From Powellomyces hirtus (Eukaryota > Chytridiomycota > Chytridiomycetes > Spizellomycetales > Powellomycetaceae): 64,000 nucleotides of DNA. Where the stretch lies: contig JAHLKG010000030.1 of NCBI GenBank assembly GCA_025526995.1, positions 258,501-322,500 on the forward strand, read 5' to 3'. A model generated the notes under the pieces. That model was not told the DNA's origin, did not search any database, and worked only from the letters and a program-made list of their open reading frames with translations. Shown one piece after another: positions 5,688-62,185 of the stretch. A program made the position numbers and the translations under genes. Numbering within the stretch: the first letter of the stretch is position 1; each line of letters starts with the position of its first letter.

Positions 5688-5944
5688 TGTGTCGTTGTGT
5701 GTGTGTGTGTGTGGGGACAAGTCAATAGTAGTGTTGCGGTTGGTGTCCGTTAATGAATGTAAGAGTGCTTTGCAGATTTCGCTTTGAGAATCCGTCTGTA
5801 AAAAAACACTCAGTGGAGAGGTGTGATATCGATACGGTAAAATGACACTGCCTTGTTTGAGCGCGTAACGCTACGGTGGAGCTTCCCGCCCATTTTCTCT
5901 AAAAATCCCGTCTCTCTGCCCCGTTGCGTTCTTCCTTCCACGCA

Positions 5945-6785
5945 ATGCCAACTCCGGCTCCCCATGACTTTATCCTGCCCGCATGCTACTACCCCGCTGC
6001 CAAGCCCTACAGCAGCTTCACTACCCTGCTGCACCGTTTCGGACGCTACGAACGTGAACGCATGCGGTCCCTCATAGACCTCCACAACAGCATCGCTGCC
6101 GCTGAAGCGGGCTCTCCGACCAGTGCCAACTTTTCCTTCTTGGACAAGGATGGCCGCCCACCACCTGGGAAGGATCCTGCGGGCATGTCCACTCCGTCGC
6201 TGCAGAGGAATAGATCGATGGATGCGTTGGGAAAACAGCTTATGCAGGCGGCTGCGGGGGAGTTGAATGACCAGGTGGGAATCTTTTTACACTTGAGGTC
6301 TTTCGCCCTGCGTGAACCGCACAGTGGCTAGAATCTGGTCCCATTGCTATCGTCACATGTTCTATCCGCACCGTTGTGCTCACCTTCGGGCGTTTTACTT
6401 CAGCGGGTAGCATTGACACCAAAACAAGAGATCAAGATGGAGCTAGCTCGAATAAAAGCCGCGGTCGAAAAGCTGTCAAAAGAGAGCAATGCCGCAGCAA
6501 ACTTTTCGGGCAAACAGGTACGCTTCTAGCGTTGGGCCATATAAAGGTGTACCAAACCACCGCCGACGCCTTCTTTACTTTTCCCTGGGTTCCCAGAACG
6601 TCTATCCCGTCACCACCAACGCGGCCCAACAACCATCATCTCAGGGAAAGGATTCGCGAAAGGGCAGGCCCTCGTCACCACCGATCCCACCGCTACAAAA
6701 CCCAAACAGTCTGACGGCAGCCGAAAAACAGAAATTCATGTTTGTGGGACAACTCATGCAACGACTGGATCAGAGAAAAGGATGA
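5945..6785 (+). CDS. Conserved-looking protein of unknown function
   Basis: Exons 5945-6274, 6404-6517, 6597-6785, all phase 0, give 210 residues from MPTPAPHDFILPACYYPAAK. I do not recognise the family. The N-terminal part (FTTLLHRFGRYERERMRSL) looks like an amphipathic helix; the middle has LTPKQEIKMELARIKAAVEK, a likely coiled coil; the C-terminal end is Pro/Ser-rich, then LTAAEKQKFMFVGQLMQRLD. Net basic, no signal peptide or membrane segment. The consistent splicing and helical heptad character support a real gene. It is divergent from SGT1 with only 257 bp between starts, so the two may share a promoter region. Confidence 0.65.
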
Positions 6786-16044: not shown

Positions 16045-19000
16045 TCAGACTGCCTTAACCATGTACTCTGTTACGGGTTTAACGGGCACGGCGGCCTTAC
16101 TGAGGCACCACGAAGCCTTGAGGTCCGCGACGGCATTCTCGTCGTCTTGAACGACATGAGCAGTCTTGAGGACCGCCTCGACTTTATCTTTCACGTCCTG
16201 TTCGAGCGGTACTTTCGGTTCCGGGCATTTCTTTGATTTAACGTGCACGCTGAGTTTACATCGGGTCGTGGACGCCGGGTCGATAAACTTATCAAAGAAC
16301 GCCAGCAGAGTGTCCTGGGTGACGCGTTTCACTTTTTCCGCGTCCAGGACATGCTGGTCGAAATGGTAGTAGCGGGACGAGACGTGAGTCCAGAGGCGTT
16401 GGGATTCCTGGGCGAGATTCTTGTCCTTCTCTAGCATGCGGGCCGCGAGGGCAGTTTGGTGTTTCGCAAATTCCTCGGGGGTTAGGTCCGCAATCACTTT
16501 TTTTAGTCCCGCGAGGAACGCGTCGATGCGGGTTTCGAGGAACGTTGGTTCGCGTTCACTCTGAATGATGACGCGGAATCCCATCGCGCCCGTGGATTTG
16601 CGCAGGCCGCTAAACACCATGTAGCCGAGCTGTTCCTTTGTGCGCAACTGATCGAATGCGGGTTCATGGGCAATCTGGCTGAACAGGTTGAGCTGCGCGC
16701 GAAGCTCAGCGTCAGTGAAATCGCCGACTTGGATGTAGTACTCGATAGCCGAGTTGAGATTGTCGGCATTGGGCACGGTGCGGGTATGCACGTACGAGAT
16801 GCCCGGCGTCAGCAGCTGCGTGCGCATTGTCTCGGCGCGCTGGTAGGCAGGCAGGGCTTTTGGATGGAACGCGTCCTCGACAATCTGCACCAGCTTCAGG
16901 GCAGTGGCGTTTTCAATGTTGCCGTGGGCGAGACCTTCGATGTGCATGTGCTGCAGCATCTGCGGGTAGAAGCGTTGAATGTCGTCCGGGGTGATGCCGT
17001 CCAGTTCCGCGAGCTTTTCCTCGTGTGTCCACAGCTTTTCCTGCGTGAGGTAGCTGACGTGGTAGATGGCGTGCTGGTGCGGCGACTCCATGGCCCAGTT
17101 CTTGTACGACCGAGCAACCTGTTCGCTGATGAATTTGAAGCGCTTCTGATCTACAATAAGGTTCTTCATCTTGTCCACAATCTTGGTGAGCAACGTCGCC
17201 AGCTTATCGTTGTATCCGGCCAGAATCAGCACCATTCCATCCGTATTGTTCTCCAACGCGTACGAAAGTCCGGCAACTTCGGCGTAGTAAGAAAATTCGT
17301 TCAGGGCATCTTTCAGCAGATCAGTGTAGATGCGGGCCAAAGTGCAGGCTAAGGGGGAGACGTAGGACATTGGAGACTTGAGCTGGAACCACACATTGGC
17401 TTTGGGGACCAAGAAGGTGTCGTCCTTCTTATACCACATGCGAACAATGTTGTCATCTCTAATGATCGCGGCGCGGGCATCACCGTCGACTTTGCGCACA
17501 TCAAAGTTCTCGGGGATGAACTCGTTGGGACTCGGCAGGTAGAGTTCCGGATCGTGCTCCTTGGTGTTGACCAACGCCTTCTTCAAAACATCAGGGAAGT
17601 CTCGAAGAACATACTCCGTGCCATACCAAGCGGCCTTCTCAAAGTCAGTGGTGATTCCCTCATGCGTGGGGGAGACAAGTGTCAATCGGAAATTGTCTGG
17701 ACGCAGGTAGCTCAAACACAGGGCAATCTTGTCCGCCTCGTAGTCGTACATCAAATATGGACCAGACAGGATATCTTCAGGTTCGTATTGATGCATGTTG
17801 CCTGCTACTCGCGAAGTGTACGATGAGGGGGGGGACTTTTCCTTGAAGCGGAAAGACATGGCCGCCAGCTGCTTGCACTCCTGGAAGATCCACTCTTTAA
17901 TTCCGTCGGCGGTGACCATGCTGATGTACTGGAATATAATGGGTACAATCTCTTCGTAGTGCTCGACACCCGCCAGAGTAAGATCGATCGAGACCTTGAA
18001 GAAATCAAAGTTGATTCCTCCATGGGTAATGCCGGCAGACAGCGCAATCGCCCATCCCTTTGTTTTCAGTAGAGAGAGGATGGAACCAGCGCCTTCGTGT
18101 CCGATGAGATGCGCAAGGTATTTGCTGGGCTGAGATTTGTACATCTTCTGCGTGTCGGGGAAAGGGAACGTCAACTCGAGGTGTCGCAGCTCCTTCACAG
18201 GCTTGATGAGCAATTCTTTGCCCAGTTCAGCTTTGGTGAGCGGATGGCCTTCAAACGAAGGGACTTTGATGTCCTTGTTTTTGACCGCCGAGAACATGGA
18301 CACGGCCCAAGATTCCAACTGATCCAACGACTCCTTTCCTAGCAGGACCAGCTTCATGATGTTCGCACTGTAGTATTTGTCATGGAACTCCAACAATATC
18401 TTCCGGATGTCCAGACCCTTCTGAGCCGGAATATCGCGAAGCGTCTCGAGATTGCCGGTTCCGAACTTCCGATATGGGTGGTTTGGATTGGACAAATCCT
18501 TTTCGAGCTGGTACACCCGCCAGTTGTCAGATTGCAGATTCTTCTTATGCTCCGAGTCGACAGCATTCATTTCTCGTTCTGTACACGACTCTGAAAACAG
18601 CGGTGTGATGAAGAATTGGGCAAAGCGATCCAGAGCGCCCTCAAAGTGACCTGAGGTCACTTCGAAATAATAGTTTGTGTTTTCGACCGACGTGAACGCA
18701 TTGGAGTGTCCACCGTGCTCCGACAGGTACTGGTTGTAGTCGTTTTCCACGGGATATTTCTCCGTGCCCATGAAGAGCAAATGCTCACAAAAGTGGGCGA
18801 GTCCAGCCACGTCCTCCGGGTCACACAGATGGCCAACGTGGACGTCGAGAGCGGCGGACGCTTTATCGGTCGCTGCATCCGATATCAGCAGGACCTGCAG
18901 GCTATTGGCGAGGGTAAGGAGGCGGTATGATCGATCGTCCTGATCGGGTTTGGTGATTGCGTTAAAGACTGCTGGGTGACCGGGGCCCGCCGTCACCGGG

Positions 19001-19143
19001 ACAGCATCCGCATTCTCTTGCGATGTCATATCTTGAGTTTGGATTGGACAGGTGCTGGCGCAGTGTATACAGTGTTGAGCAGTATTGGAACGAAGTGTAC
19101 AAAAAAGGAGGAATGCAGTTGAAACTGCTGAAAGGCGTCTCAT
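16045..19143 (-). CDS. STE23: Insulin-degrading enzyme / STE23-type M16 metallopeptidase
   Basis: Intronless 1032-residue zinc peptidase of family M16A, which degrades small peptides such as pheromone and signal fragments. Inverted zinc motif HFCEH at residues 117-121, with the downstream Glu in the following helix (ENTNYYFEVTSG region). The four-domain length is complete: FRLTLVSPTHEG mid-region, C-terminal domain with EQLGYMVFSGLRKSTGAMG and the terminal KSKKCPEPK. Two starts are possible. Met1 at 19143 adds a 38-residue leader (MRRLSAVSTAFLLFCTL) with no acidic residue and a hydrophobic core, resembling a signal or mitochondrial presequence. Met39 (MTSQENADAV) gives the usual cytosolic form. 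The longer frame is annotated. Confidence 0.95.
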   Translation of the reverse strand: MRRLSAVSTAFLLFCTLRSNTAQHCIHCASTCPIQTQDMTSQENADAVPVTAGPGHPAVFNAITKPDQDDRSYRLLTLANSLQVLLISDAATDKASAALDVHVGHLCDPEDVAGLAHFCEHLLFMGTEKYPVENDYNQYLSEHGGHSNAFTSVENTNYYFEVTSGHFEGALDRFAQFFITPLFSESCTEREMNAVDSEHKKNLQSDNWRVYQLEKDLSNPNHPYRKFGTGNLETLRDIPAQKGLDIRKILLEFHDKYYSANIMKLVLLGKESLDQLESWAVSMFSAVKNKDIKVPSFEGHPLTKAELGKELLIKPVKELRHLELTFPFPDTQKMYKSQPSKYLAHLIGHEGAGSILSLLKTKGWAIALSAGITHGGINFDFFKVSIDLTLAGVEHYEEIVPIIFQYISMVTADGIKEWIFQECKQLAAMSFRFKEKSPPSSYTSRVAGNMHQYEPEDILSGPYLMYDYEADKIALCLSYLRPDNFRLTLVSPTHEGITTDFEKAAWYGTEYVLRDFPDVLKKALVNTKEHDPELYLPSPNEFIPENFDVRKVDGDARAAIIRDDNIVRMWYKKDDTFLVPKANVWFQLKSPMSYVSPLACTLARIYTDLLKDALNEFSYYAEVAGLSYALENNTDGMVLILAGYNDKLATLLTKIVDKMKNLIVDQKRFKFISEQVARSYKNWAMESPHQHAIYHVSYLTQEKLWTHEEKLAELDGITPDDIQRFYPQMLQHMHIEGLAHGNIENATALKLVQIVEDAFHPKALPAYQRAETMRTQLLTPGISYVHTRTVPNADNLNSAIEYYIQVGDFTDAELRAQLNLFSQIAHEPAFDQLRTKEQLGYMVFSGLRKSTGAMGFRVIIQSEREPTFLETRIDAFLAGLKKVIADLTPEEFAKHQTALAARMLEKDKNLAQESQRLWTHVSSRYYHFDQHVLDAEKVKRVTQDTLLAFFDKFIDPASTTRCKLSVHVKSKKCPEPKVPLEQDVKDKVEAVLKTAHVVQDDENAVADLKASWCLSKAAVPVKPVTEYMVKAV

Positions 19144-33907: not shown

Positions 33908-34182
33908 TGTAATGAGGCGTGGCTCGCCAGCCTAAGTCTAGACACGCGTCGGGAAGGGCCCCGCGTGAGATGGATGCTAGCGTCAGCATCCCAAAGGGTA
34001 CTAGACCTCAGGGATGGCCACGGATGGCCATCACGTGACCAGGACTGCCTCGCGGTCCAGAAGAAAAGTAGGAATACTCCGACGAGGGCATATTCAAGAC
34101 TTAGAAATCTTACTGTAGAATTAGACATAGGGAATTCCCGAATAGAAGACTAGACTCTGGCAACGGACTTAGCATTATTACA
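33908..34182 (+). repeat. Gypsy-1 5' LTR (275 bp)
   Basis: Same sequence family as the LTRs at 46986, 57171 and 60722. Starts TGTAATGAGGCGTGGCTCGC. Contains a CACGTGAC motif about midway. Left flank TCAAG matches the right flank of the 3' LTR. Confidence 0.97.
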
Positions 34183-36930: not shown

Positions 36931-39900
36931 CTCCTTAAACAACATCAGCAAGAACCTGCTGCCGAAGCAAACCTCGTTTTGGCAACTAACCACAGGTCCT
37001 CGCACTCAATCGCCCCACATTATCAAGGACGCTATTCTCCTTACTGACCTGTGACCCATCCCGGCAGTCCAAATCAGCGTCGCAAACGGCGAAAACCTTA
37101 CCGCTCGCGAAGCAGGCACACTCACCATCAGCAATAACGACACGGACGAAGCCATTGTCTGCGTTGACGTGCTCTACGTACCTGAAGCGAGCCGCAACTT
37201 GGTTTCCACATCGCCACTGAACCGGGACGGTTACAAAATCACATTCTCAACTAACGGTTCCTCCATTTTAAAGAACGGCCGCGTTATCCTACCGCTCCGC
37301 CACAACGGAAACCTGCCATTTATTGATGGGTATGTTGAAACCACCGCCGCTGCTTTTGCGACCGAAGCTGCAAAACAAAGGACCGCAATGTCTATAAACT
37401 ATGGCATCAACGCTTTGGGCACATTGGACAACGAGCGCTTCAAGCTGCGAATCTGATCTACTCTCTCGATCTGCCAAACAACGTTGAACCGGAACACGCG
37501 CTGTGCTCCGGCTGCTCCCTCGGTAAATCCACTCGGCTGCCCTTCAATGGGCAAAACTCTCGACCTGCAACCAAACCACTTGATCGCATACACTCGGACA
37601 TTCTTGACATGGGCGCCAATCTTCTCTCCCTCTCTGGCGCCCGCTACATCCTCACGTTCATTGACGAATACACACGGTATTCCGTCATCTACCTCCTCAA
37701 GACCAAAGATCAAACCAACGATTATTGGCAAAACTAGCGCGCGTACGCTGAACGCCATCTCGACTCCAAGATCAAGGAGCTGCGCTGCGATAACGGCGGT
37801 GAATACTATCCCCTACAGGCTGAGCTGCTCGCCGATGGGATCACGTTAAACCCTACTCACCCGTACTCCTCTCAGCAAAATGGCATTGCTGAACGGTTCA
37901 ACCGTATGCTCATGGACCAGGTCCGGGCGATTCTTCATGACAGCCGCGCTCCTTTCAAACTTTGGGGAGAACTCGCTATGGCCGTCAACTACCTGCGTCA
38001 ACGGACGCCATCAACGTCTCTCAATGGAGAGACCCCATACCAACGTTGGTTTGGGACCCCTGCCGATGTATCGAACTTCCGCACCATCTGGAGCGTGGCC
38101 TATATGCATCAACCTGTGCGCCGTCGCACACACCGCAAGCTCGGAGCTCGCGCTGTCGGACCGTTCCGACTAGTGGGATATCACCCCACTAAACAAGGCA
38201 ACTATCGCCTTTACGATGCATTGACGGATTCGATCATTGACGCACGAGACGTCACAATTAACGAGGCTGATTACGTCAGCCCTGTCGCTCAGAGCGACAC
38301 CACTCCTGAATATGTGGTTGAGCGCATCTTACCCTCTCGCAACGGCGAAGGGGGAGAGGAATTCCTGGTCAAGTGGCTTGGCTACGACGAACCAACATGG
38401 GAACCCCTCGACAACGTCAAGGATTCAGAGGCCCTGACGCGATTCACCGGAATCGAAGATGACGGCACACCCGTAATCGCCGAACTGCATGCCGCATGCA
38501 GCACTGACATTGACGAGCCCGCCACTTACCAGGCGGCAATCAACTCGCCGTACGCGAAAGAGTGGAAACAAGCGATCGACGCTGAACTCTCGTCTCACCG
38601 CACTAACAAGACGTGGGACACGGACACCACGCAAACACCGTCTGGCACTCACCTTGTTGATTCCAAATGAGTCTTCAAAGTCAAACGCAACGCCGATGGT
38701 TCCATCAAGAAGTTCAAAGCCCGCCTTGTCGCCCGAGGCTTCACGCAGCGTGAAGGCATTGACTTCAACAAAACATATGCGCCCGTCGTCAAGTTTAACA
38801 CCTTGCGGGCGCTACTCGTGCTTGCCGCTAAGCTCAACCTTCACGTCCATCAGATGGATGTCATCACCGCATTTCTCAACGGAGATCTCGATGCAGAAAT
38901 CTGGATGCGGCTCCCAGCCGGCGTCGCTGATGACGTCGTCAAACTACGCCATTCCCTTTACGGCCTTAAACAATCGCCGCACCTATGGAACAAGGTTCTC
39001 GACTCCTTTCTTCAACAGCTCGGGTTCTCAGTATCAGAACTCGACACCGCGCTCTACATTAAGCGGACTGACAACACAAGGATCCTGATTGTTGCCATCT
39101 ACGTGGATGATCTCACGATTTTGGCATCAAACCTCGATGACCTGCTCGCTGTCAAATCCGCGCTTGCCGAACGCTTCAAGATGGAGGACATGGGGGAGAT
39201 CTCTTTCCTTCTCGGTCTTCAGATTACGCGCGACCGGTCAAAGCAATGCATTACCATCGGCCAACAGAAGTACATCAAAGACATGATCGACAAGTTTAAC
39301 CTTAACGGCATGCGGCCGCATCACATCCCGATGGACCCGACCTTACATCTAAACGCGCACGATGGAGCCGACGCCCTCGATGTATCAGGAATCAAGGAAT
39401 ATCAGTCGATCATTAGAACACTAATGTATCTGATGTTAGGGACTCGCCCTGACCTGGCCTACTCAGTTTCCCGTTTATCTCAGTTTCTGGCAGCACCGAC
39501 GGCCGCACACATGACGGCCGCAAAGAAAGTTTGCGTGTACGCAAACACAACCAGTGATCTCTCTCTTGTCTTCCAAGATGGGGGAGATATTGTCGGATAT
39601 TCGGATGCCGACTACGCACGCTGTACGGACACGCGTCGCTCAACCTCCGGCTATGTATTCATGCTCAACGGAGCTGCTATTTCATGGAAATCTCAACGTC
39701 AAAAATCAACGGCGCTATCCACAGCAGAAGCAGAATACATTGCACTCGCGGAATGTGCAAAGGAAGCACTCTGGATCCAGGGTCTCCTATCCGAACTGTC
39801 AGCAACGGAGCAGACAGCAGTTCTCATCTATGAGGACAATCAGGCCGCTATCAAGCTTGCCGCCAATCCAACGCATCACCAACGAACCAAACACATCGAT

Positions 39901-40077
39901 GTCCGTTATCACTTCCTGCGAGACCTCATCAGTAACGAGCGCATTCACCTACAGTACATTGAATCCAAGCTCATGCTGGCTGACGCCCTGACGAAACCGC
40001 TACCTCGCCCATTACTTGATGATCTGCGACATCGAACTGGATTCCGAACGAAATCAGATTACGCCAAATCTCACTGA
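36931..40077 (+). pseudogene. pol: Copia-1 pol: protease remnant, integrase, chromodomain, RT, RNase H
   Basis: The protease region is degraded and shifts frame near 37450 (VLYVPEASRNLVS is the conserved post-protease block). GAG-pre-integrase SGCSLGKSTRLPF, then integrase with DNGGEYYP and PYSSQQNGIAERFNR. In-frame TAG at 37735-37737 and TGA at 38668-38670 sit where Trp is expected (YWQN-stop-RAY, SK-stop-VFKVKR), consistent with TGG changed to TAG or TGA. The chromodomain lies at about 38311-38448 (YVVERILPS, EEFLVKWLGYDEPTWEPLDN). RT has YVDDLTILA; RNase H has DADYA and ALSTAEAEYIAL; the end is ADALTKPLPR. Confidence 0.92.
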
Positions 40078-41284: not shown

Positions 41285-44200
41285 GAAGCACCGTCCGCGT
41301 GCGCCCCCTGCCTACTCTCCCCACAAGAGGTACGGCCCCGCAGATTCCAGCCGGCGAAGCCAGCACTCAATGCAGAGGGAATCTACACGGCCAAGCAATG
41401 GAAACGCTTGATGAAGAAGGGCGAGATCACTGGAGTTTTCGAGGTACACATCATAGATGCGATTCCAGTCGCAGAGGCTCAATTCGTACGGACTATCGAC
41501 GCCAAGAAAAGGGCAATCTTGGAGGAACGACACCACACCAACACTGAAGCCAAGGCGGCAGATCAAGAGGACCCGCTAGAGGCGCTGGCAGCCGACCATC
41601 CACTCCGACCGACCCTAGAGAAATACGTCACGACGCTATTCACCGAGCAGTCAGGCATGCCTCCGGACCGAGGTGAGAACAATTTCACCATTCGGCTCAA
41701 ACCCGGCTCAAAGCCCGTGATGCAGCCACTCCGGCATTTGAGCCCTGAAGAACTGGACGAGCTCGGCCAGCAGATGCAGCGTTTAATGGACAAGGGTTGG
41801 ATCTCACACTCTCGCAGTCCATGGAGCGCGCCCGTCCTATTTGCCCCAAAGAAGGACGGCGACCTACGCTGCTGCATTGACTACCGGGCACTGAACAAGA
41901 TGACTCACAAGGATGCCACGCCACTTCTGAACCTCTCGGAGCTGCGCAACAGGCTTGTCAACATGCGGGTATTACCGCGATCGACATTAGCAACGCGTAC
42001 CACTGCATCATGATCCGACTGGAAGATAGGGAGAAAACAGCGTTCCGAACACGTTTTGGACATTTCGAATACAATGTTCTACCTTTCGGCTTAACTAATG
42101 CACCTGCTACATTCCAGCGACTAACCAACAAACTCTTGGGCGACAAGTACGACGCCTACGTGATCTCATACCTCGATGATATTCTCATATTCAGCACCGA
42201 CATGAGTCCGCACACTCAGCACGTCGACGAGGTCCTCAAGACCTTGGCGGAACATCGCCTCCACATCAAACCCAGCAAATGTCAATGGGCGGTTGACAAA
42301 GTCGAGTTCTGCGGCCACCGAGTCAGCAAGGATGGCCTGAGTATCGCCCCCTCCAAGGTGACTGCGGTCCGGGAACGACCTCGCCCGACCAACTCCCTGG
42401 AACTCCTTAGTTTTATGGGCCTTGTCAACTACGTCAAAGAATACATCCCCGAGTATGCACAGATCGCCCTACCGTTAACGAACCTACAATCCGGCAATCG
42501 CCCATGGCAATGGGGCGACGAGGAGGACAAGGCGTTCAATCGCTTAAAAGAATTATGCTCGTTGGCACCTACCCTAGCGTATTTCGACCCGGCGCTCGAC
42601 ACCTACTTGTTTACCGACGCATCGGGCTACGCCTATGGTGGACGGCTGGCACAGCCGGCCGCAGGGGATTTCCCATACCCTCATCCACTACCTACCACCA
42701 AATCAGGCTTGGCTAACATTCCACAACTTCGCCCGGTGACATACTACTCCCGCAAGATGCAACAAGCCGAGACCCAATACCCCGTACATGAACAGGAACT
42801 GCTGGGGCTGGTCAAATCCATACGCGCCAACCACCATTACCTCATCAGCCGCCCCTTCCGTGCTTTTGTCGACCACAAATCCCTGATCTACCTTCAGGAA
42901 CAACCCCACCTGTCACGTCGCCAAGCGGGCTGGGTCGAGTTCCTCCAACAGTTCGATTTCTCAGTGGAATACCTCCCCGGCACATGGAACTTGATCGCCA
43001 ACTTCCTAAGTCGCGACCCGACTTACACCCCCAAGTGTGCGACCTGCCAGGCCAAGATTGACGTGGTCACCGCCATTGTGCAAACGGAGATAACCGCAAC
43101 GACGCACATGCCGACCGATGCGGACTGGACCCGAGCGCTCGCATCCGATGATTTTGGCCAAAACATCCTACTAACCCTTGACGGCCCACAGGAGAACCTG
43201 TCCGGCCATGCGCGCCGATTCCGGGCAGTGGACTCCCCTCCGGACCGATTCTTGATGTACCACGACCGTCGGTACGTCCCCGACAGTCTACGGGGGCCAC
43301 TTCTTCAGACCCATCACGACTCCCTCGCGAACGGCGGCCACTCCGGTGTACAACGGACGCTCGCCAAACTTCTGGAGTCGTACTATTGGCCTCACATGGA
43401 GCGTGATGTGTACCAATATGTCCGCACTTGCCCTACATGCCAACGTCACAAGCGTGCCGCACCGATCGGCTTCCTCCGCAGCTTACCGATCCCCGACGCT
43501 TGTTGGCAACAAATCGGCATGGATATATTCTTCCCCACGTCAGGCTCTAAGGGGGGGGAACCTAGGGTAGAGCCCGAGGTGACGAAGAACCCTTCGCACC
43601 ACACCGGCAAGAGACCGACCAAGACGGCGGACGCCGTACTCCTCATCGTTGACTACCTTTCATGCCGCATGATACTTCTACCTACTAACACACACGCTAC
43701 AGCTCAGGAGACGGCTCAACTCTTTCTGGAACAGGCATTCCGCCACACGGGGTTACCCCACACCATCGTGAGCGATCGGGTCCCCAAGTGGCTATCAGAA
43801 TTCTGGCGGTACCTGATGCGGGCACTCGACGTCAAGCAGGAACTCTTGTCGGCACGACACCAACAGACCGACGGCAAGGCGGAGAACGCCATCAAGACGA
43901 TCAAGGGAATCATGGGCCCCTATCTTGACTATGCCAGCTCCAACTGGAAGAGTTTACTCCCCACCCTTGAGTACAACTACAACCGAACGCCGCAGACGTC
44001 GACGGGACTATCCCCTTTCGAGATTGACCTAGGCCGCGTTCCCCGGGTACCGAACCAATGGGTAGCACCTAACCCCGGGGAGATGATAAGGCAATCGGCA
44101 CGAACCGCCGTGGAGAGACGGATTAAGGAATTCGCCGACGTGAGTCGCATCGTGCAGCAACGGCTCCGAGACGCACAGGACCAGCAGGCAAAGTACTACG

Positions 44201-44715
44201 ACCGCAAGAAGCACACGGAAGCATACCGAGAGGGTGACAAGGTCTTACTTCATCGTGAGGGTATCGCTATTACCAGCGTCACCACAAGGAACAAAAAGCT
44301 GGCTGAACAATGGATTGGGCCATTCACAGTACGCGGCAAAGGCCCGCATCCTGACACCTACGAGCTCGAACTACCCAAGGAGTTCACCGGGTTGCACCCA
44401 GTCTTTCATGTCAGCATTCTGAGACGTTACCATGACCCGGGCGGTACCCCGTACAGACAGGTCACCGCCCCGCCTGAGCCCGAGAAGGACGAAGACGGTC
44501 AGGAGACCTACCAAGTGGACAAGATCCTAAATGCCAGATGGCACAGGAACACCGAGCAGTTCTTAGTCAAGTGGACAGGTTACGACAACACCCGGAACAC
44601 GTGGGAACCGTATGCACACGTGAAGGGAACGACTGCACTGGAAGAATGGCTCCGGGAGCACCCCGGAGAGGACCGCGGCCAAAGGCTAGCGGCCAGGCGA
44701 CATAAGAGAACCTAG
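41285..44715 (+). pseudogene. pol: Gypsy-1 pol: RT, RNase H, integrase, GPY/F, chromodomain (one frameshift)
   Basis: RT starts in one frame (WISHSRSPWSAPVLFAPKKDG, CIDYRALNKMT), shifts near 41967, and continues to 44715 in a 901-codon frame: LPFGLTNAPATFQRLTN, catalytic YLDDILIF, then RNase H (YLFTDASGYAYGG). The integrase has the zinc-binding HH..CC (HHDSLANGGHSG, CPTCQRHK), the first Asp in GMDIFFP, the second in VSDRVPKW (the usual DRDPK second Asp is Val) and Glu in TDGKAENAIK. GPY/F module: AEQWIGPFTVRGKGPHPD. The C-terminal chromodomain at about 44507-44655 (YQVDKILNAR, QFLVKWTGYDNTRNTWEP) makes it a chromovirus. Confidence 0.95.
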
Positions 44716-45775: not shown

Positions 45776-46525
45776 TCAACCAATCTTGGTGAAGGAGAAT
45801 TGGGACCGATTGCCGTGGCACCGGTCGCCCAACCCGCACCGGAGGGGGGTGTAATTTGCCATGTTCATCTCGCTGCGAAGAGAGCTGAGTTAGTCAGGTA
45901 AGACAGTGGCAGCCCAAAGAGTACTACTTACGTGCGGACGTGGCCCATGCAGTGGAGATGGTTGCATGGGAACATGCGGAGGTCCGCCCCGACATGGTTG
46001 CAGCCAGCAAACTGGCACCCGGCGGGGATGGCCGCAAAGAAGAGGACCCGACCGCAGTGGGGGGCGCCGCACATCAACTGGCCCTGAGGGCCGTTGTTCT
46101 GGAAAGCAAAGGAACAAAGGAACCACACCGTTAGGGAGACATCAGGCCGCCTCTCAGCAAAGGGGGAACATACCGTGTCGTCGGCCGCCGCCACGCTGCA
46201 GGGCCGGCACACCAGATGGTGGCATTCTGACGTGAACATCTTGCCCTTGCGGAAAAGATGGCACTTCCAGCAAGCGGGCAAGCCGGCCGACCCCTCGGGG
46301 GTGGACTTTTCATGGACCGAGGGGTCCTGTAGGTAACAAAGGAAGACGGGCAACATGAGACGAGTTGCCACACCCGAGGATGAGCCCCGACCCCTACTTA
46401 CCCGGGCGGGCTGGGCCCGCTTGGTTGCGCCTTTCCCAAGTTGTTGAGCAGGCCGGCGCTTGCCCATGGTGGTGGTGTCGGGGGGGGGGGGGGGGGGGAG
46501 GAGAGTTGTTGGGGGTGTCAGCCAT
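45776..46525 (-). pseudogene. Gypsy-1 copy of antisense RING-like gene (frameshift in poly-Pro run)
   Basis: Exons 46402-46525, 46174-46326, 45932-46098, 45776-45872 on the minus strand. The last three have the same lengths (153, 167, 97) as in the other two copies. Encodes DPSVHEKSTPEGSAGLPACW, CHHLVCRPC, CGAPHC, CNHLHCMGH and CGLGDRCHGN. The G19 run at 46480-46498 (C19 on the coding strand) is one base past a codon multiple, so the MADTPNN start is out of frame. An internal ATG (MGKRRPAQQL, about 46467) restores the frame. The homopolymer may also be a length or assembly error. One late Cys is Ser in this copy. All splice sites are intact. Confidence 0.8.
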
Positions 46526-46985: not shown

Positions 46986-47260
46986 TGTAATGAGGCGTGG
47001 CTCGCCAGCCTAAGCCTAGACACGCGTCGGGAAGGGCCCTGCGCGAGATGGATGCTAGCGTCAGCATCCCGAAGGGTACTAGACCTCAGGCATGGCCACG
47101 GATGGCCATCACGTGACCAGGACTGCCTCGCGGTCCAGAAGAAAAGTAGGAATACTCCGACGAGGGCGTATTCAAGACTTAGAGATCTTACAGTAGAATT
47201 AGACATAGGGAATTCCCGAATAGAAGACTAGACTCTGGCAACGGACCTAGTATTATTACA
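46986..47260 (+). repeat. Gypsy-1 3' LTR (275 bp)
   Basis: Preceded by the polypurine tract AAGGGGGG and followed by TCAAG. Ends CCTAGTATTATTACA. Confidence 0.97.
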
Positions 47261-50218: not shown

Positions 50219-53146
50219 GTGGCTTTGGGGGAGAGGGGGCCACCCCGTTGCATTTACGGTCGTTCGGGCGGCCCCCCCCATTGCTCCCCTTCTGCTATGG
50301 AGGCCGGGCCCCAGGCTTTAGCGACAGTTTCCGTTGCGGCACCGTCTGGGAGTCTGGCTGCCCCTGGTGTGGTGGCCGGACCCCCCGCCGCTGTGGTTCC
50401 AGACCTGATGATGGCCTCTTCTGGGGCTGGTTCTGTTCCCTTTTCCTCTGTCAACGAAGGAACCCTCTGGCATCACCATTTGGGCCATCCAGGCGTGCAC
50501 ATCATGAGAAAAGTCAAGCTCCCAATGACCAACGAAGTCTGCAGAGGATGCAAATTTGGTAAGCACAACTGCTCACCATTAGGTACAATGACACGGTCCA
50601 AGACACCACTCGATTGCCTACATTTCGACCTTAACGGCCCGCACATTCCCACGGTCGGCGATGAGAAATACGCCCTAGTTGTGATCGATGACTATTCACG
50701 CTTCACATGGATCTTCTTCCTGAAGGTGAAGAGCAAATCTACTGCAAAGTTGATTGAATTGATCAACTTCATCGAAAATCCGACCAACGGACCGGTCAGA
50801 CGACTTCATTTTGATTGAGGGGGGGAGTTTGTAAATCACGATCTGAAAAAATTCATTTCAAAAAAGAGCATCCTGCACGAACTCACTGCTGCAGATTCCC
50901 CACAGTCCAACAGTGTAGCTGAAAGGTTCAACCTCACCCTGTTCGACACCATTCGTTCATTGGAACACTCATAAGGCATCCTGAAACAACTCTGGACTGA
51001 GTTAGCGGCTACATCAGTCTATTTACGGATTCGCCTACCCCACAAGTCCAATAACAACATCTCACCGTATGAACGGTTTTACGGCAGAGAGCCCTCTCTT
51101 ACCCACCTCTGTGTGATCTGGGCCGATGCCTTTGTGCATCTCGTCAAGAGAAAACAAGTCTCGAAGTTGGCACTGTGCGCCACACGTATCAAACTCATCG
51201 GTTATAAATTTGATGGCGCTTACCCCTGTTGGGATGACAACCGTCAAGAAATAGTCATTTCTCGCAATGTAACGTTCGACAAAACCTCAGCACTCGATCT
51301 CGCGAAAGACTACATCCCGCCCGAAGAACTCTACAAAGTCAAAGAGATTCTCGACTCACGTGATGACCTGGAAGGCCCCGAATTCCTCTGCAAATGGCTG
51401 GGATTCGAAGACAAAGATAATACATGGGAACTGATCAAAAATGTCAATCATTTGACGGTCTTTGCTGACTACATCAATGAGAAGACAGCGAGCGCTCTTT
51501 CGGCTGCAAGTACCGAAGAACCCCAAACCTACAAACAAGCGCTCTCATCGGATGACACGCCGAAGTGGACCGAGGCCATAAATGCCGAGTTGGAGTCCCT
51601 TCACACACATGACACTTGGGAAGTCATTAACCCCAAATCCTTACCGCACAATCAACGGCCCATCCGCACCAAATGGGTATTCAAGATCAAGCGAGATCTG
51701 GATGGTCAACCTCAACGTTACAAGGCTCAGCTTGTCGTGAAAGGCTTCGAACAACGTTACGGTATTGACTACAATGAGACCTACGCTCCGGTTGCCAAGA
51801 TAGCTACCCAACACGTTCTTCTTGCTCTCGCTGCCAGCCTAGGCCCAAAATGCCATCAAATGGATGTAGTAACTGCATTCCTGAATGGGATTGTTACCAA
51901 GACCATTCTAATCTATGCCCCTGAAGGCTCTGGCTTTCCGCCCGGGACCATCCTTCGACTCCGAAAGGCCCTCTACGGTCTGAAACAAGCCCCGCGCGAA
52001 TGGTACTCCCTACTTCACAAAGAACTGACTTCTTTGGGATTCAAACCCCTGGCAAATGACAATGCTGTCTACATCAGAACTCTACCTGAAAGTGACTCAT
52101 CGCAGTACATCTCCGTCTACGTCGACGATCTCCCCATTTTCGCAAAGACCGAATCGGAAATCTCGTCAATCAAGACATCCCTGCACAACGAGTTCAACAT
52201 GACAGACCTAGGCGAAGTCAACCACTACCTGGGAATGAGAGTTCGACGCGACTACTCAAGGCACGTCATCTACCTCGATCAAGAGTCATATGTAAATGAC
52301 ATCCTCGAGCGCTTTCGTATGCAAGATTGCAAGCCCGTCAACACTCCGATGGACCAGACCAAGCTCGAACCCTACGAAGTCGAAAATACAAAGACTTCAC
52401 CTAACCCGCAAGAAGGAGAATATTGCGAAATTGTTGGATCTCTCATGTACCTGATGATCTGCACGCGCCCTGACATTGCTGTAGCTGTCAGTATGCTTTC
52501 TCGCTTCGCAAGCAACCCCTCACCTCAACATCTGCAAGCTGCAAAGCGTGTTCTTCGCTACCTACGGGGGACTTCTACTTACAGCCTCCGCATCGGCGGC
52601 AACAACGGTACCCTTCACGGATACAGTGACGCCGACTGGGGAAATAACATCATCGATCGACGGTCAATCACTGGCTACCTTTTCTGCATTGGAAATGCGG
52701 GCCCCGTTACTTGGGCTTCGAAACGCCAACCCACCGTTGCTCTCTCATCTACCAAAGCTGAATACATGGCACTTTCTTTCGCCACTCAAGAAACAATCTG
52801 GCTTTGCTCACTCCTGAAAGAACTTCAGATCCCCTAATATCTCGACAAAAATGCTCGACCCACAACGATCTACAAAGATAATCAGTCATGCACTTCGCTG
52901 GCGATGAACCCCGTTCAGCATGCCCGTACCAAGCACCTTAACATCAGGCATCACTTCATCCGCGATCACGTTGACAAGGAGAAACATCTGGAGTATTTAC
53001 CCACCGCTGAAATGGTTGCTGACTCACTTACGAAGCCCTTACCGGCCCCGGCATTCAAATACCATTGCGAAAATATGTGCATCAAGCACTACGATAACAC
53101 CATCACACCAATGAAAGCGTCCATGATGGAGCTCCCGAATGAGTAA
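50219..53146 (+). pseudogene. pol: Copia-2 pol: integrase, chromodomain, RT, RNase H (3 stops)
   Basis: One frame with stops at 50816 (TGA), about 50972 (TAA) and 52835 (TAA). It starts in a Pro/Ala-rich linker, then the integrase zinc module (LWHHHLGHPG, CRGCKFGKH), catalytic LHFDLNG and DYSRFTW, and DSPQSNSVAERFN. The chromodomain at about 51332-51480 (YKVKEILDSR, EFLCKWLGFEDKDNTWELI) precedes RT. RT has YVDDLPIFA and LNGIVTKTILIYAPEG. RNase H has YSDADWGNNI and VALSSTKAEYMAL. End block MVADSLTKPLPAPAFK. Comparison with Copia-3 shows that the 52835 stop replaces Glu (GAA to TAA). Confidence 0.92.
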
Positions 53147-57170: not shown

Positions 57171-57445
57171 TGTAATATTACTAGGTCCGTTGCCAGAGTC
57201 TAGTCTTCTATTTGGGAATTCCCTATGTCTAATTCTACTGTAAGATCTCTAAGTCTTGAATACGCCCTCATTGGAGTATTCCTACTTTTCTTCTGGACCG
57301 CGAGGTGGTCCCGGTCACGTGATGGCCATCCGTGGCCATCCCTGAGGTCTAGTACCCTTCGGGATGCTGACGCTAGCATCCATCTCACGCGGGGTCCTTC
57401 CTGACGCGTATCTAGGCTTAGGTTGGTGAGCCACGCCTCATTACA
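57171..57445 (-). repeat. Gypsy-2 3' LTR
   Basis: 275 bp, reverse orientation, followed by CCCCCCTTAGATTCGCGAC (complement of the polypurine tract). Confidence 0.96.
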
Positions 57446-57790
57446 CCCCCCTTAGATTCGCGACTATCTCTTAGGCTTGAATCTCTTCAACGAGGCGAAG
57501 CTTGCCTAAGCCGGGCGGCGGCGGGTTAACGGATGCTGACGTGGTTGTGGGAAGATGAGGCTGGGGAGGCGGCCCTGGTGCGGGTCACGTCGCGGTAGTC
57601 TCCGGCGGGTAGTCTCCGCCCTTCGTGGTGCGCGAAGTTGTCGGAAAGTCTATTTCTCTCTTCGTAGGGGCCCTAGATGAATCACGAGTAGCTTCCTCCA
57701 TGCGGATTTCGATAAGTAACATCTGCTGCGCTCCGTAGCGGATGAAACACTAACACCTGAATTTCCGAGCGTTCCCAGGCAGATCAAGCC

Positions 57791-57798
57791 TTTAAAAA
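57791..57798 (+). promoter_or_regulatory. TATA-like box of Gypsy-2 antisense gene
   Basis: TTTAAAAA about 110 bp before the ATG. The equivalent site is TTTAAAA in Gypsy-3 (61342-61348) and a weaker TTCAAAAA in Gypsy-1. A CT-rich stretch and TTTGTAG, a possible 5'-UTR acceptor, follow before the (AC)n leader. Confidence 0.4.
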
Positions 57799-57864
57799 GG
57801 TGCTGCCCGTTGATTCTCCCCCTCTCGCTCTTCTTTTCTTTGTAGCTCGACGAACTCACAGCAC

Positions 57865-57907
<43 letters not shown>

Positions 57908-58665
57908 ATGGCTGACACCCCCAACAACTCTCCTCCCCCCCCCCCCCCCCCCCCCCCCGACACCACCACCACCATGGGCAAGCGCCGGCCCGCCCAACAA
58001 CTTGCGAAAGGCGCAACCAAGCGGGCCCAGCCCGCCCGGGTAAGTAGGGGTCGGGGCTCATCCTCGGGTGTGGCAACTCATCTCATGTTGCCCGTCTTCC
58101 TTTGTTACCTACCGGACCCCTCGGTCCATGAAAAGTCCACCCCCGAGGGGTCGGCCGACTTGCCCGCTTGCTGCGAGTGCCATCTTTTCCACAAGGGCAA
58201 GATGTTCACGTCGGAATGCCACCATCTGGTGTGCCGGCCCTGCATCGTGGCGGCGGCCGACGACACGGTATGTTCTCCTTTCGCTGAGGGGCGGCCTGAT
58301 GCCTTCCTAACGGTGTGGTTCCTTTGTTCCTTTGCTTCCCAGAACGACGGCCCTCAGGGCCAGTTGACGTGCGGCGCCCCCCACTGCGGCCGGGTCCTCT
58401 TCTTTGCGGCCATCCCCGCCGGGTGCCATTTCGCTGGCTGCAACCATGTCGGGGCGGACCTTTGCATGTTCTCATGCAACCATCTCCACTGCATGGGCCA
58501 CATCCGCGCGTAAGTAGTACTCTTCGGCCTGCTGCTGTCTTACCTGACTAACTCAGCTCTCTTCGCAGCGAGATGAACGTGGCAAATTACACCCCCCTCC
58601 GGTGCGGGTTGGGCGACCGGTGCCACGGCAATCGGTGCCAATTCTCCTTCACCAAGATTGGTTGA
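57908..58665 (+). CDS. Gypsy-2 copy of antisense RING-like gene
   Basis: Exons 57908-58039, 58115-58267, 58343-58509, 58569-58665 give 182 residues with a closed frame. Start MADTPNNSPPPP (a C24 run codes poly-Pro), basic MGKRRPAQQLAKGATKRAQP, then a RING-like cluster: CECH, CHHLVCRPC, CGAPHC, and a second cluster AGCNHVG, CNHLHCMGH, RCGLGDRCHGNRCQF. The first four ligands fit C-x2-C-x13-C-x-H-x2-C-x2-C; the seventh and eighth (CGAPHC) are spaced x4 rather than x2, so it is RING-like rather than canonical. The intron-1 acceptor reads CCG here instead of CAG in the other copies, so this copy may mis-splice. A (CA)n microsatellite precedes the ATG. Confidence 0.8.
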
Positions 58666-58904
58666 TTAGTTCTCCCCCCCCCCCCTCTTTCTTGTATATA
58701 CTTTCGATTGTTGTCTGTTGCTCCCTTGGGGCCTGGCCTCCGGGCCGTAATCAAATTCAGTACCAAATTCTCATCGTTGTACTTGCCTTCTCATTGCTGT
58801 GCTCCCTTGAGCCTTGTAGCATTTCGTATGCATCCGCTGTGTCCAATGTCACTCGGCTTCTTCCCGGCTATGGTGCTCATGGTAGATGCCCTGCATCACA
58901 CTTC

Positions 58905-59735
58905 CCCGTTGGGAAGACCGCCCAGCGGTTCCCCGGCCATCGTCCAACGATGGCCGGTATGTCACCTAGTGAGGTCTACTGCCTCACAGTCTTCGGCTCA
59001 TCGCCCAGAGATCCCGGTATCTCGCCCAGCGAGATATACTGCCCAGCAGCCTTCAGCCATCGTCCAACGATGCTGGCATCTCACCTCGTGAGGTCTACTG
59101 CCTCGCAGTCTTCGGCCATCGTCCAACGATGCCGGCATCTCACCTCGTGAGGGCTACTGCCTCGCAGTCTTCGGCTCATCGCCCAGCGATCCCGGCATCT
59201 CGCCCAGCGAGGTATGTCGCCCAGCGACCTTCGGCCCATCGTCAAACAATGCTGGTATCTTGGCCGAAGCCCTTCTCTTCCCCTTTGCGTGGGTGTGTAC
59301 TACGGCCATGGTCCCCGCGGGTCTCGAGGTACGCTGCCATGCAAATCTGGTGCCGGTAACCTTGCATCGACAGCCGGTCGATGCCCAGCATCACCCTTCT
59401 CACCCAGTGAGGTATGCCGCCCAGCGGCCTTCGGCCCATCGTCAAACGATGCCGGTATCTTGGCCAAAGCCCTTCTCTTCCCCTTCGCGTAGGTATGTAC
59501 CACGGCCATGGTCCCCGCAGGTCTCGAGGTACGCTGCCATGCAAATCTGGTGCCGGTCACCTTGCATCGGCAAGCCGTTGGCTCATCGCCCAGCGATCCC
59601 GGCATCTCACCCAGTGAGGTATGCTGCCCAGCAGCCTTCGTCCATCGTCCAACGATGCCGGCATCTCGCCCAGCGAGGTATGCCGCCCAGCAGCCTTTGG
59701 CCATTGTCCAACGATGCCGGAATCTCGCACTATAA
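58905..59735. repeat. Gypsy-2 mini-hairpin array
   Basis: Same array as in Gypsy-1 (inverse orientation) and Gypsy-3. Plus-strand hairpins have CCA, CTC or CTA loops, for example CATCGT-CCA-ACGATG, CTCAC-CTC-GTGAG, CTGC-CCA-GCAG, GTCGC-CCA-GCGAC, ATCGC-CCA-GCGAT. A roughly 200-bp subunit containing CATGCAAATCTGG occurs twice within it. Confidence 0.9.
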
Positions 59736-59789
59736 TCTCCTCTACCTCACGTAGCATCTCTCTTGTTAATTTTCGGTACAGCTCGCTAT

Positions 59790-60721
59790 CTAGGATCTCT
59801 TACGTCGCCTGGCTGCTAGCCTTTGGCCGCGGCCCTCTCCGGGGTGCTCCCGGAGCCATTCTTCCAGTGCGGTCGTTCCCTTCACGTGTGCATACGGCTC
59901 CCACGTGTTCTGGGTGTTGTCGTAACCTGTCCACTTGACTAAGAAGTGCTCGGTGTTCCTGTGCCATCTGGCATTTAGGATCTTGTCCACTTGGTAGGTC
60001 TCCTGACCGTCTTCGTCCTTGTCGGGCTCAGGCAGGGCAGTGACCTGTCTGTACGGGGTACCGCCCGAGTCATGGTAACGTCTCAGAATGCTGACATGAA
60101 AGACTGGGTGCAACCCGGTGAACTCCTTGGGTAGTTCAAGCTCGTAGGTGTCAGGATGCGGGCCCTTGCCGCGTACTGTGAATGGCCCAATCCATTGCTC
60201 AGCCAGCTTTTTGTTCCTTGTTGTGACGCTGGTAATCGCGATACCCTCGCAATGAAGTAAGACCTTGTCACCCTCTCGGTATGCTTCCGCGTGCTTCTTG
60301 CGGTCATAGTACTTTGCCTGCTGGTCCTGTGCGTCTCGGAGCCGTTGCTGCACGATGTGACTCACGTCGGCGAATTCCTTAATCCGGCTCTCCACGGCGG
60401 TTCGTGCCGATTGCCTTATCATCTCCCCGGGGTTAGGTGCTACCCATTGGTTCGGTACCCGGGGAACGCGGCCTAGGTCAATCTCGAAAGGGGATAGTCC
60501 CGTCGACGTCTGCGGCGTTCGGTTGTAGTTGTACTCGAGGGTGGGGAGTAAACTCTTCCAGTTGGAGCTGGCATAGTCAAGATAGGGGCCCATGATTCCC
60601 TTGATCGTCTTGATGGCGTTCTCCGTCTTGCCGTTGGTCTGTTGGTGTTGTGCCGACGAGAGTTCCTGCTTGACGTCGAGTGCCCGCATCAGGTACCGCC
60701 AGAACTCTCATAGCCACTTGG
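59790..60721 (-). pseudogene. pol: Gypsy-2 pol, integrase C-terminal part and chromodomain
   Basis: Minus strand, same protein as Gypsy-1 pol from the integrase core (SSNWKSLLPTLEYNYNRTP) through GPY/F to the chromodomain (QFLVKW position reads HFLVKW). A stop occurs in PKWL-stop-EFWRYL near the break. Upstream integrase, RT and protease are missing from this side of Gypsy-3. Confidence 0.93.
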
Positions 60722-60996
60722 TGTAATAATACTAGGTCCGTTGCCAGAGTCTAGTCTTCTATTCGGGAATTCCCTATCTCTAATTCTACTGTAAGATCTC
60801 TAAGTCTTGAATACGCCCTCGTTGGAGTATTCCTACTTTTCTTCTGGACCGCGAGACGGTCCGGGTCACGTGATGGCCATCCGTGGCCATCCCTGAGGTC
60901 TAGTACCCTTTGGGATGCTGACGCTAGCATCCATCTCACGCGGCGCCCTTCCCGAAGCGTATCTAGGCTTAGGCTTGCGAGCCACGCCTCATTACA
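60722..60996 (-). repeat. Gypsy-3 3' LTR
   Basis: 275 bp, TGTAATAATACTAGG at the left end and CTCATTACA at the right. Confidence 0.97.
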
Positions 60997-61341
60997 CCCC
61001 CCTTAGATTCGCGACTATCTCTTAGGCTCGAATCTCTTCAGCGAGGCGAAGCTTGCCTAAGCCGGGCGGCGGCGGGTTAACGGATGCTGACATGGTTGTG
61101 GGAAGATGAGGCTGGGGAGGCGGCCCTGGTGCGGGTCGCGTCGCGGTAGTCTCCGACGGGTAGTCTCCGCCCTTCGTGGTGCGCGAAGTCGTCGGAAAGT
61201 CTATTTCTCTCTTCGCAGGGGCCCTAGATGAATCACGAGTAGCTTCCTCCATGCAGATTTCGATAAGTAACATCTGCTGCGCTCCGTAGGGGATGAAACA
61301 CTAACACCTGAATTTCCGAGCGTTCCCAAGCAGGTCGAGCC

Positions 61342-61348
61342 TTTAAAA
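61342..61348 (+). promoter_or_regulatory. TATA-like box of Gypsy-3 antisense gene
   Basis: TTTAAAA about 100 bp upstream of the ATG at 61448, at the same relative place as in Gypsy-2. Confidence 0.4.
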
Positions 61349-61447
61349 GGTACTGCCCGTTGAATCTCCCCCCCTCTCGCTCTTCTCTCCTTTGTAGCTC
61401 GACACACACACACGTCACACACGCACACATACATACATACATACAAC

Positions 61448-62185
61448 ATGGCCGACGTCGCCAACAACTCTCCTCTCCCTTCCGACACCACCACCGCGGG
61501 CAAGCGCCGTCCCGCCCAGCAACTCGCAAAAGGCGCGACCAAGCGGGCCCAGCCCGCCCGGGTAAGTAGGGGTCGGTGCTCATCCTTGGTTGTGGCAACT
61601 CGTCTCATGTTGCCCGTCTTCCTTTGTTACCTACAGGACCCTTCGGTCCATGAAAAGTCCACCCCCGAGGGGTCGGCCGACTTGCCCGCTTGCTGGAAGT
61701 GCCGTCTTTTCCGCAAGGGCAAGATGTTTACGCCGGAATGCCACCATCTGGTGTGCCGGCCCTGCATCGTGGCGGCGGCCGACGACACGGTATGTTCCCC
61801 TTCGTTGAGAGGCGGCCTGATGTCTCCCTAACGGCGTGGTTCCTTTGTTCCTTTGCTTTCCAGAATGACGGCCCTCAGGGCCAGTTGACGTGCGGCGCCC
61901 CCCACTGCAGCCGGGTTCCCTTCTTTGCGGCCATCCCCGCCGGGTGCCAGTTCGCTGGCTGCAACCATGTCGGGGCGGACCTCGCATGTTTCCATGCAAC
62001 CATCTCCACTGCATGGGCCACGTCCGCGCATAAGTAGTACTCTTCGACCTGCTGCTGTCTTACCTGACTAACTCAGCTCTTCTCGCAGCGAGATGAACGT
62101 GGCAAACTACACCCCCCTCCGGTGCGGGTTGGGCGACCGGTGCCACGGCAATCGGTGCCAATTCTCTTTCACCAAGATTGGTTGA
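61448..62185 (+). pseudogene. Gypsy-3 copy of antisense RING-like gene (1-bp deletion)
   Basis: Exons 61448-61561, 61637-61789, 61864-62029, 62089-62185. Start MADVANNSPLPSDTTTAGKR: the poly-Pro run is absent here, so the C tract is an expansion in the other copies. Clean acceptor CTACAG for exon 2, and CWKCRLF plus CHHLVCRPC intact. Exon 3 is 166 rather than 167 bp because one C is missing in GACCTCGCATG, which shifts the frame before CNHLHC. The exon-3 donor reads GC|ATAAGT instead of GC|GTAAGT. Otherwise it is the least expanded copy. Confidence 0.8.

Follow-up and report, generated by a model that had tools for sequence, protein, structure and literature searches.

We analysed a window of 64,000 nucleotides (the whole stretch to which the coordinates below refer) from contig JAHLKG010000030.1 of the chytrid Powellomyces hirtus, which holds three copies of a gene placed antisense to gag-pol in a Ty3/gypsy chromovirus. 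Judged from its sequence, this is likely a real accessory gene of the retroelement, in all likelihood spliced and maintained by selection that acts on the replicating lineages. The predicted gene structure together with the pattern of selection lends good support to a spliced, protein-coding antisense gene that is carried by the element. The element was classified by Pfam matches to Retrotrans_gag, reverse transcriptase (RT), RNase H, integrase, SH3_Tf2-1 and chromodomain, and the closest pol protein in the databases is from P. hirtus (87% identity, 90% of the query covered). Its parts follow in the order long terminal repeat (LTR), leader, gene, tail and pol end. An earlier note on this DNA had placed the gene between the chromodomain end of pol and the LTR, opposite to gag-pol. 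This location was found for all three copies, with the pol open reading frames (ORFs) on the other strand: the pol ends of copy A and of element 1, which holds copy C, were recognised by Pfam matches to Chromo and SH3_Tf2-1, that of copy B by a 98% DNA match. In the window copies no sense-strand frame runs through the whole gene; the longest open stretch reached 142 codons, with 5–9 stops per frame.

Further copies were collected from the 29.3 Mb genome by a DNA search (best 40 of 76 candidates, all matching) and a protein search (255 exon matches from the best 150 of 245 candidates). Fetching 66 loci and adding the three window copies gave 69 places, some with partial copies. The alignment of these places has 70 rows, the extra one (L074) being the cut end of the L034 copy; two loci with nearly identical values, L056 and L057, may be one locus assembled twice. 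An LTR of the family was found on the promoter side in 64 of the 69 loci and a pol end on the other side in 63. At least one of the two was present beside the gene in 68 loci, the remaining one (L066) having the tail only, and the gene therefore belongs to the element. Starting from the pol ends (best 40 of 98 candidates), a hand count found the gene place beside 33 of the 40 that were scored, 31 with the common version I and 2 with a divergent version II described below; 5 others were not read.

The exon lengths given in the earlier note for the window (153, 167 and 97 nt for exons 2, 3 and 4) were confirmed, exon 3 of copy B being 166 nt long, and they recur throughout the genome: exon 2 measured 153 nt in 69 of the 70 rows, exon 3 167 nt in 64 and exon 4 97 nt in 58. 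Exon 1 is variable (114 nt in 30 rows, 120 nt in 19), mainly in a C tract, as had been stated. Introns 1, 2 and 3 are bounded by GT-AG in 64, 66 and 61 rows, respectively. In the window, for which the earlier note had stated GT-AG introns throughout, the rule fails for intron 1 of copy A and intron 3 of copy B. The frame is open from ATG to stop in 45 rows, 35 of which have all three introns GT-AG. Over the 70 rows this pattern of exons, splice sites and frame is far from chance. In most of 54 copies a CTAAC-type motif precedes the acceptor by about 32 nt in intron 2 and by about 17 nt in intron 3. Intron 2 varies in length (75 nt in 33 rows, 74 nt in 14 and 77 nt in 13). In the window none of the three copies is intact, because intron 1 of copy A does not end in AG, exon 3 and intron 3 of copy B are defective, and copy C carries a frameshift in exon 1 (Table 1).

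The action of selection was assessed from variant frequencies and from the ratio of replacement to silent substitution rates (dN/dS, omega), using 54 of the 70 rows; rows with exon 2–4 lengths other than 153/167/97, the rows L043 and L074 and the duplicate L047 were dropped. The samples for the other parts of the element were 32 rows for pol (from 63 loci with a pol-end match) and 49 copies for the leader. The ratio of replacement to silent variants decreased from 100:31 for singletons over 40:20 for variants in 2–3 copies to 29:31 for variants in at least four copies (Fisher p = 2e-4 for the last class against singletons), while a neutral ratio of 2.79 is expected from the intron spectrum. 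In the 69 unfiltered rows the same trend was obtained (232:70, 88:46, 26:22 and 17:21), and intron variants did not show such a frequency shift. Such a drop towards common variants would be expected if dead copies drift and source copies are constrained. The codon omega was lowest for the gene (0.279), somewhat higher for the pol end (0.365), and reached 0.937 when intron cores were read as codons. The dN/dS comparison across genomic copies, proposed earlier as a check, thus came out in favour of a coding gene. For the outlying copy L071, compared with the 54 copies over exons 2 and 3, dN was 0.135 and dS 0.796 (dN/dS 0.17). There are 24 residue variants present in at least four copies, and not one of them falls on any of the 23 Cys/His codons (of 159); rarer variants change such codons in 7 singletons and in 3 cases shared by 2–3 copies.

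Several observations weigh against this interpretation. Introns 1 and 3 are as stable in length as the exons (75 nt in 66 and 59 nt in 67 of the 70 rows), so that length alone cannot tell exons from introns. A branch-point-like CTRAY motif was found in intron 1 of none of the 54 copies. One reverse frame has the identical ratio of common variants, 29:31; this is as expected from the sharing of third positions, and in the window copies stops interrupt that frame within the gene. Finally, the gene is not part of every element copy, as it is missing at two of the 40 pol ends, being cut at L080 and deleted at L082. At L082 (1104–1137) the gene is deleted from exon 1 to the tail, and LTR, leader and pol end are kept.

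The encoded protein has about 178 residues with two Cys/His modules. The spacing in module 1 is C-x2-C-x12-C-x-H-x2-C-x2-C-x17-C-x4-C and in module 2 C-x4-C-x11-C-x-H-x2-C-x2-H-x14-C-x5-C. The order of the ligands suggests two RING-like modules, each with an intron between the sixth and the seventh ligand, and by eye the N-terminus appears basic and resembles a nuclear localisation signal. A RING finger of the C3HC4 type follows the motif C-x2-C ... C-x-H-x2-C-x2-C ... C-x2-C. The first six ligands fit this motif in both versions, and in a search against solved structures the RING of PCGF5 was matched with E 0.028 for a single sequence and 0.0037 for a profile (positions 56–95). Other observations fit a RING less well: this match, the best one, covers the first six ligands and ends before the seventh and eighth, and the last pair of the first module is C-x4-C rather than C-x2-C. 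In Pfam zf-C3HC4 stayed below the cut-off (E 0.0081–0.0088, 16 bits against 21), and version II matched more weakly still (best zf-RING_5, E 0.14). For the cross-brace fold, AlphaFold2 gave a prediction of low confidence, with a mean predicted local distance difference test score of 31 for the unspliced database protein P0001 and a two-row alignment as input. The designation RING-like in the earlier note is therefore weakly supported. In the protein databases P0001 was the one relative found by sequence search and by profile search (869 candidates scored). PHROGs gave no match, and among viral contigs, where records near this genome were possibly excluded, none of 3 pattern matches was confirmed.

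Upstream of the gene a TTTAAA box is located at a distance of 93–117 nt in 40 of 49 copies, in 35 of them without an intervening ATG. The leader contains a block (57743–57775) in which not a single variant is present in four or more of the 49 copies. The motif CACTAAC inside this block occurs in 48 of the 49 copies, and CTAAC followed by CCCAG in only 18. The block may be a control element or part of a leader intron. It is plausible that the antisense gene has its own promoter; transcription may possibly start in the 3' LTR instead.

Nine pol ends had no known gene beside them, and the regions next to three were fetched: apart from L080 and L082, described above, this revealed at L081 a divergent gene, version II. 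L081 is the sole version II copy that was read as sequence, the other places being known from match tables. Its exons measure 120, 153, 167 and 97 nt; the introns, of 59, 76 and 62 nt, are all bounded by GT-AG. The version II protein is 54% identical to version I and, in the alignment, keeps all 14 cysteines of the version I copy L026 as well as His 76, 77, 138, 144 and 166. Exons 2–4 of the two versions are 63–66% alike and align without gaps, with pN 0.308 and pS 0.568 (the proportions of replacement and silent differences); silent sites have thus diverged more than replacement sites. The introns of the two versions are weakly alignable (the real score was reached by 5, 0 and 1 of 500 shuffles) and are probably homologous but old. 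Version II is matched by 20 places in total, 15 of them at 91–100% and two at 85%, while the matches of the last three are more distant or partial. Among the matches listed (best 150 of 226 candidates) at least 10 of the 20 have all four exons. Distant matches resembling version II were seen at G000:C12:329665-330386 (72% DNA identity), C22:419917-420392 (82%) and C41:6-262 (75%), possibly a third version.

The L081 element itself is similar to those with version I: its pol end matches at 96%, its LTR at 94%, the repeat stretch at 93.5% over 806 nt and the tail at 86%. Among version I copies the LTR ranges over 89–96% and the pol end over 90–98%, which includes both values for L081. A second version II place, C4:642873, is likewise flanked by an LTR of 94% (C4:642184) and a pol end of 96% (C4:644667). 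A milder case is L071, with 81% for the gene, 92% for the LTR and 93% for the pol end. A divergent gene on a similar backbone means that gene and backbone have different histories, either by exchange between old lineages or by retention of old versions. One could speculate, though we regard this as doubtful, that the gene is a swappable specificity module for self-limitation or mutual exclusion between element lineages, with its diversity kept by selection as for an immunity or incompatibility gene. This idea is based on the finding of at least two ancient versions (54% identical as protein, about 64% in exons, with diverged introns) on backbones that are 94–96% alike.

The protein P0001 offers a different view of the same DNA. 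It is a third-party annotation (TPA) of 197 aa, named 'oncoid', from the record of Powellomyces chytrid fungus MELD virus 1, where it is annotated as an unspliced gene of a DNA virus. P0001 reads through exons 1–3 and introns 1–2 and stops where intron 3 begins. If this were correct, the introns would be coding, in line with intron 1, whose length is divisible by three in 66 of the 70 rows. In 33 rows, however, the length of intron 2 is not divisible by three, the intron omega is close to one (0.937, as above), and the version II introns of 59, 76 and 62 nt do not fit either. In addition, exon 4 lies beyond the unspliced stop, yet its Cys and His residues and its length are kept. We therefore rejected the unspliced reading, which is highly improbable. 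P0001 is 96% identical to the unspliced translation of the copy L009 and thus lies inside the spread of the retroelement copies, and the public 'oncoid' gene is very probably retroelement DNA read unspliced. The Oncoid class of MELD viruses rests solely on short motifs according to the accessible part of a preprint (PMC11071296). That the gene stems from an endogenous MELD virus (polinton- or adintovirus-like) and was copied into the retroelement, or is shared by both, is quite unlikely. The origin of P0001 from a virus record speaks for it, and so do matches to the Pox_A32 ATPase, as in such viruses, at 5 places in the genome, one of them about 14 kb from the copy L026. Against it, P0001 falls within the spread of the retroelement copies with introns included, and no piece of the gene, the LTR or the leader was found in 9.9 kb around that ATPase on C26. 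The region in question (L079, G000:C26:290000-299900) contains the Pox_A32 ATPase at 5532–6203 on the minus strand and an Av_adeno_fibre-like ORF at 9213–9899 on the plus strand, and is probably an endogenous MELD/polinton-like virus. As both lie at least about 14 kb from L026, a MELD record containing both virus and retroelement is plausible, and the published record would then include retroelement DNA. PolB (PF03175) was not found in the genome; the control genomes had no match either, such that this carries little weight.

Two further explanations accept the transcript or the gene and deny it a role as an element protein. An antisense RNA could control the element through double-stranded RNA or interference, the reading frame being incidental, and non-coding antisense transcripts of LTR elements have been described (accessible text of PMC7264820). 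We consider this very unlikely, as there is constraint at the codon level in the spliced frame and none in the introns, the Cys/His residues are conserved, and exons 2–4 are equal in length in versions that are only 54% identical. Alternatively, the gene may be a captured host gene that travels as a passenger and is of no service to the element. Its introns and cellular-type gene structure agree with this, as does the failure to find the gene in four 2.6-kb pieces (L075–L078) of two other gypsy families, which were sampled and not surveyed. An ancient capture of a host gene is indeed a likely origin. A mere passenger is nevertheless unlikely, since no copy was seen outside the element among the best 150 of 245 candidates and the best 150 of 226 (68 of 69 loci have an LTR or a pol end), database searches found P0001 as the only relative, and common variants bear the mark of selection.

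For an accessory gene of the element, the following mode of action can be envisaged. Transcription would be driven by a promoter situated immediately inside the 3' LTR. As the introns face away from the genomic RNA, the latter would not be spliced at these reverse-oriented sites, and the introns would for this reason survive retrotransposition. The protein might then enter the nucleus, bind zinc and regulate in trans either the element itself or the chromatin or ubiquitin partners of the element, a role modelled on the proposal for Grande GENE23 and on the known role of HBZ. That an antisense gene with four exons is present in dozens of copies in a chytrid, under measurable purifying selection, hints at how retroelements can retain genes with introns; it also provides a compact system for functional tests. 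The two deep versions on one backbone point to an exchange of modules and possibly to rivalry between element lineages.

In its layout the gene is a member of the class of antisense accessory genes of LTR retrotransposons termed aORF-3R: like these, it is present in most copies and conserved to a similar degree as the proteins of the element (omega 0.28 against 0.37 for the pol end). The statement of the earlier note that no gene of this kind was known is thus too strong. According to the accessible text of PMC11963269 and PMC7264820, such genes have been described mainly in plants and have unknown functions; the plant elements Grande, RIRE2, Retand and PvRetro13 carry an antisense gene between pol and the 3' LTR, and for Grande gene23 an own promoter and a nuclear product are reported. 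The word 'intron' is absent from the main text of both papers, in contrast to the three coding introns found here. Shared with the plant genes is the position in the stretch from pol to the 3' LTR, in Retand often beside tandem repeats. In the descriptions available, Retand is a non-chromovirus, and the plant products are characterised by TRP28 or SMC domains, the chytrid protein by Cys/His modules.

Among fungi, the brtn gene of the Boty-like retrotransposons of Botrytis cinerea, an ascomycete, is reportedly the subject of Zhao et al. 2011 (Virology 417:248). In the accessible sections, brtn is listed among the antisense genes between pol and the 3' LTR (PMC7264820), and the gag-pol of Boty ends in a CHROMO domain (PMC4227169). 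Both are fungal LTR elements with a CHROMO-ending gag-pol and an antisense gene, a likeness in the described layout; the host is an ascomycete for Boty and a chytrid here. The profile search of 869 candidates, which returned P0001 only, is still compatible with a distant relation to the BRTN protein. Spliced antisense genes of LTR retroelements are also known from retroviruses, namely HBZ of HTLV-1 and APH-2, and the products of HBZ and APH-2/3/4 are mostly nuclear regulators (available part of PMC10186651). As described there, these are bZIP or other proteins with a promoter in the 3' LTR, in contrast to a Cys/His protein with three coding introns. The Pfam scan of the chytrid protein listed no bZIP family; no direct comparison with HBZ or APH was made. 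In titles and abstract beginnings, with limited coverage of subscription papers, no fungal Ty3/gypsy element was found described as carrying an antisense gene with several exons. What distinguishes the chytrid gene within the class is that three introns interrupt its coding sequence, that it encodes a Cys/His protein, that its host is a chytrid and that it exists in two deeply diverged versions; brtn may share some of these features.

The features of the window are collected in Table 1. The two LTRs of element 1 are identical at 265 of 275 positions and flanked by TCAAG on both sides, and copies A and B make up the right end of the window.

Table 1. Positions of the antisense gene copies and of the associated retroelement parts in the window.
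Feature	Position	Strand	Basis
Putative promoter and leader of the antisense gene (TTTAAA near 57791, C/T block, CA repeat)	57446..57907	+	
Copy A exon 1	57908..58039	+	
Copy A exon 2 (preceding intron 1 ends CG, not AG)	58115..58267	+	
Copy A exon 3	58343..58509	+	
Copy A exon 4, with stop	58569..58665	+	
Copy B exon 1	61448..61561	+	
Copy B exon 2	61637..61789	+	
Copy B exon 3, 166 nt, frame shifted; intron 3 starts AT	61864..62029	+	
Copy B exon 4	62089..62185	+	
Copy C exon 1, 124 nt, frame shifted	46402..46525	-	coordinates counted from lengths
Copy C exon 2	46174..46326	-	
Copy C exon 3	45932..46098	-	
Copy C exon 4	45776..45872	-	
3' LTR of copy A, TGTAAT...ATTACA	57171..57445	.	LTR matches
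Further LTR of the family (element 1)	33908-34182		LTR matches
Further LTR of the family (element 1)	46986-47260		LTR matches
Further LTR of the family	60722-60996		LTR matches
Tandem repeats between antisense gene and pol (copy A)	58934..59728	.	
Pol end of copy A (SH3_Tf2-1, chromodomain)	59790..60689	-	Pfam
Pol of element 1 (RT, RNase H, H2C2, rve, SH3_Tf2-1, chromodomain)	42010..44715	+	Pfam

Inside element 1 there are also pieces of a copia-type pol (RVT_2). In these, a chromodomain follows SH3_retrovirus at 37906–38670, and RVT_2 is found in the next ORF (38803–40077). At 51113–52837 SH3_retrovirus, chromodomain and RVT_2 are present together in a single ORF of copia type. A position behind SH3_retrovirus in a copia-type pol is an unusual place for a chromodomain. 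The host genes near the elements include an M16 insulinase-like peptidase and adjacent ORFs of HutD and AstE/AspA type (window 16045–19143 and 9503–11280).

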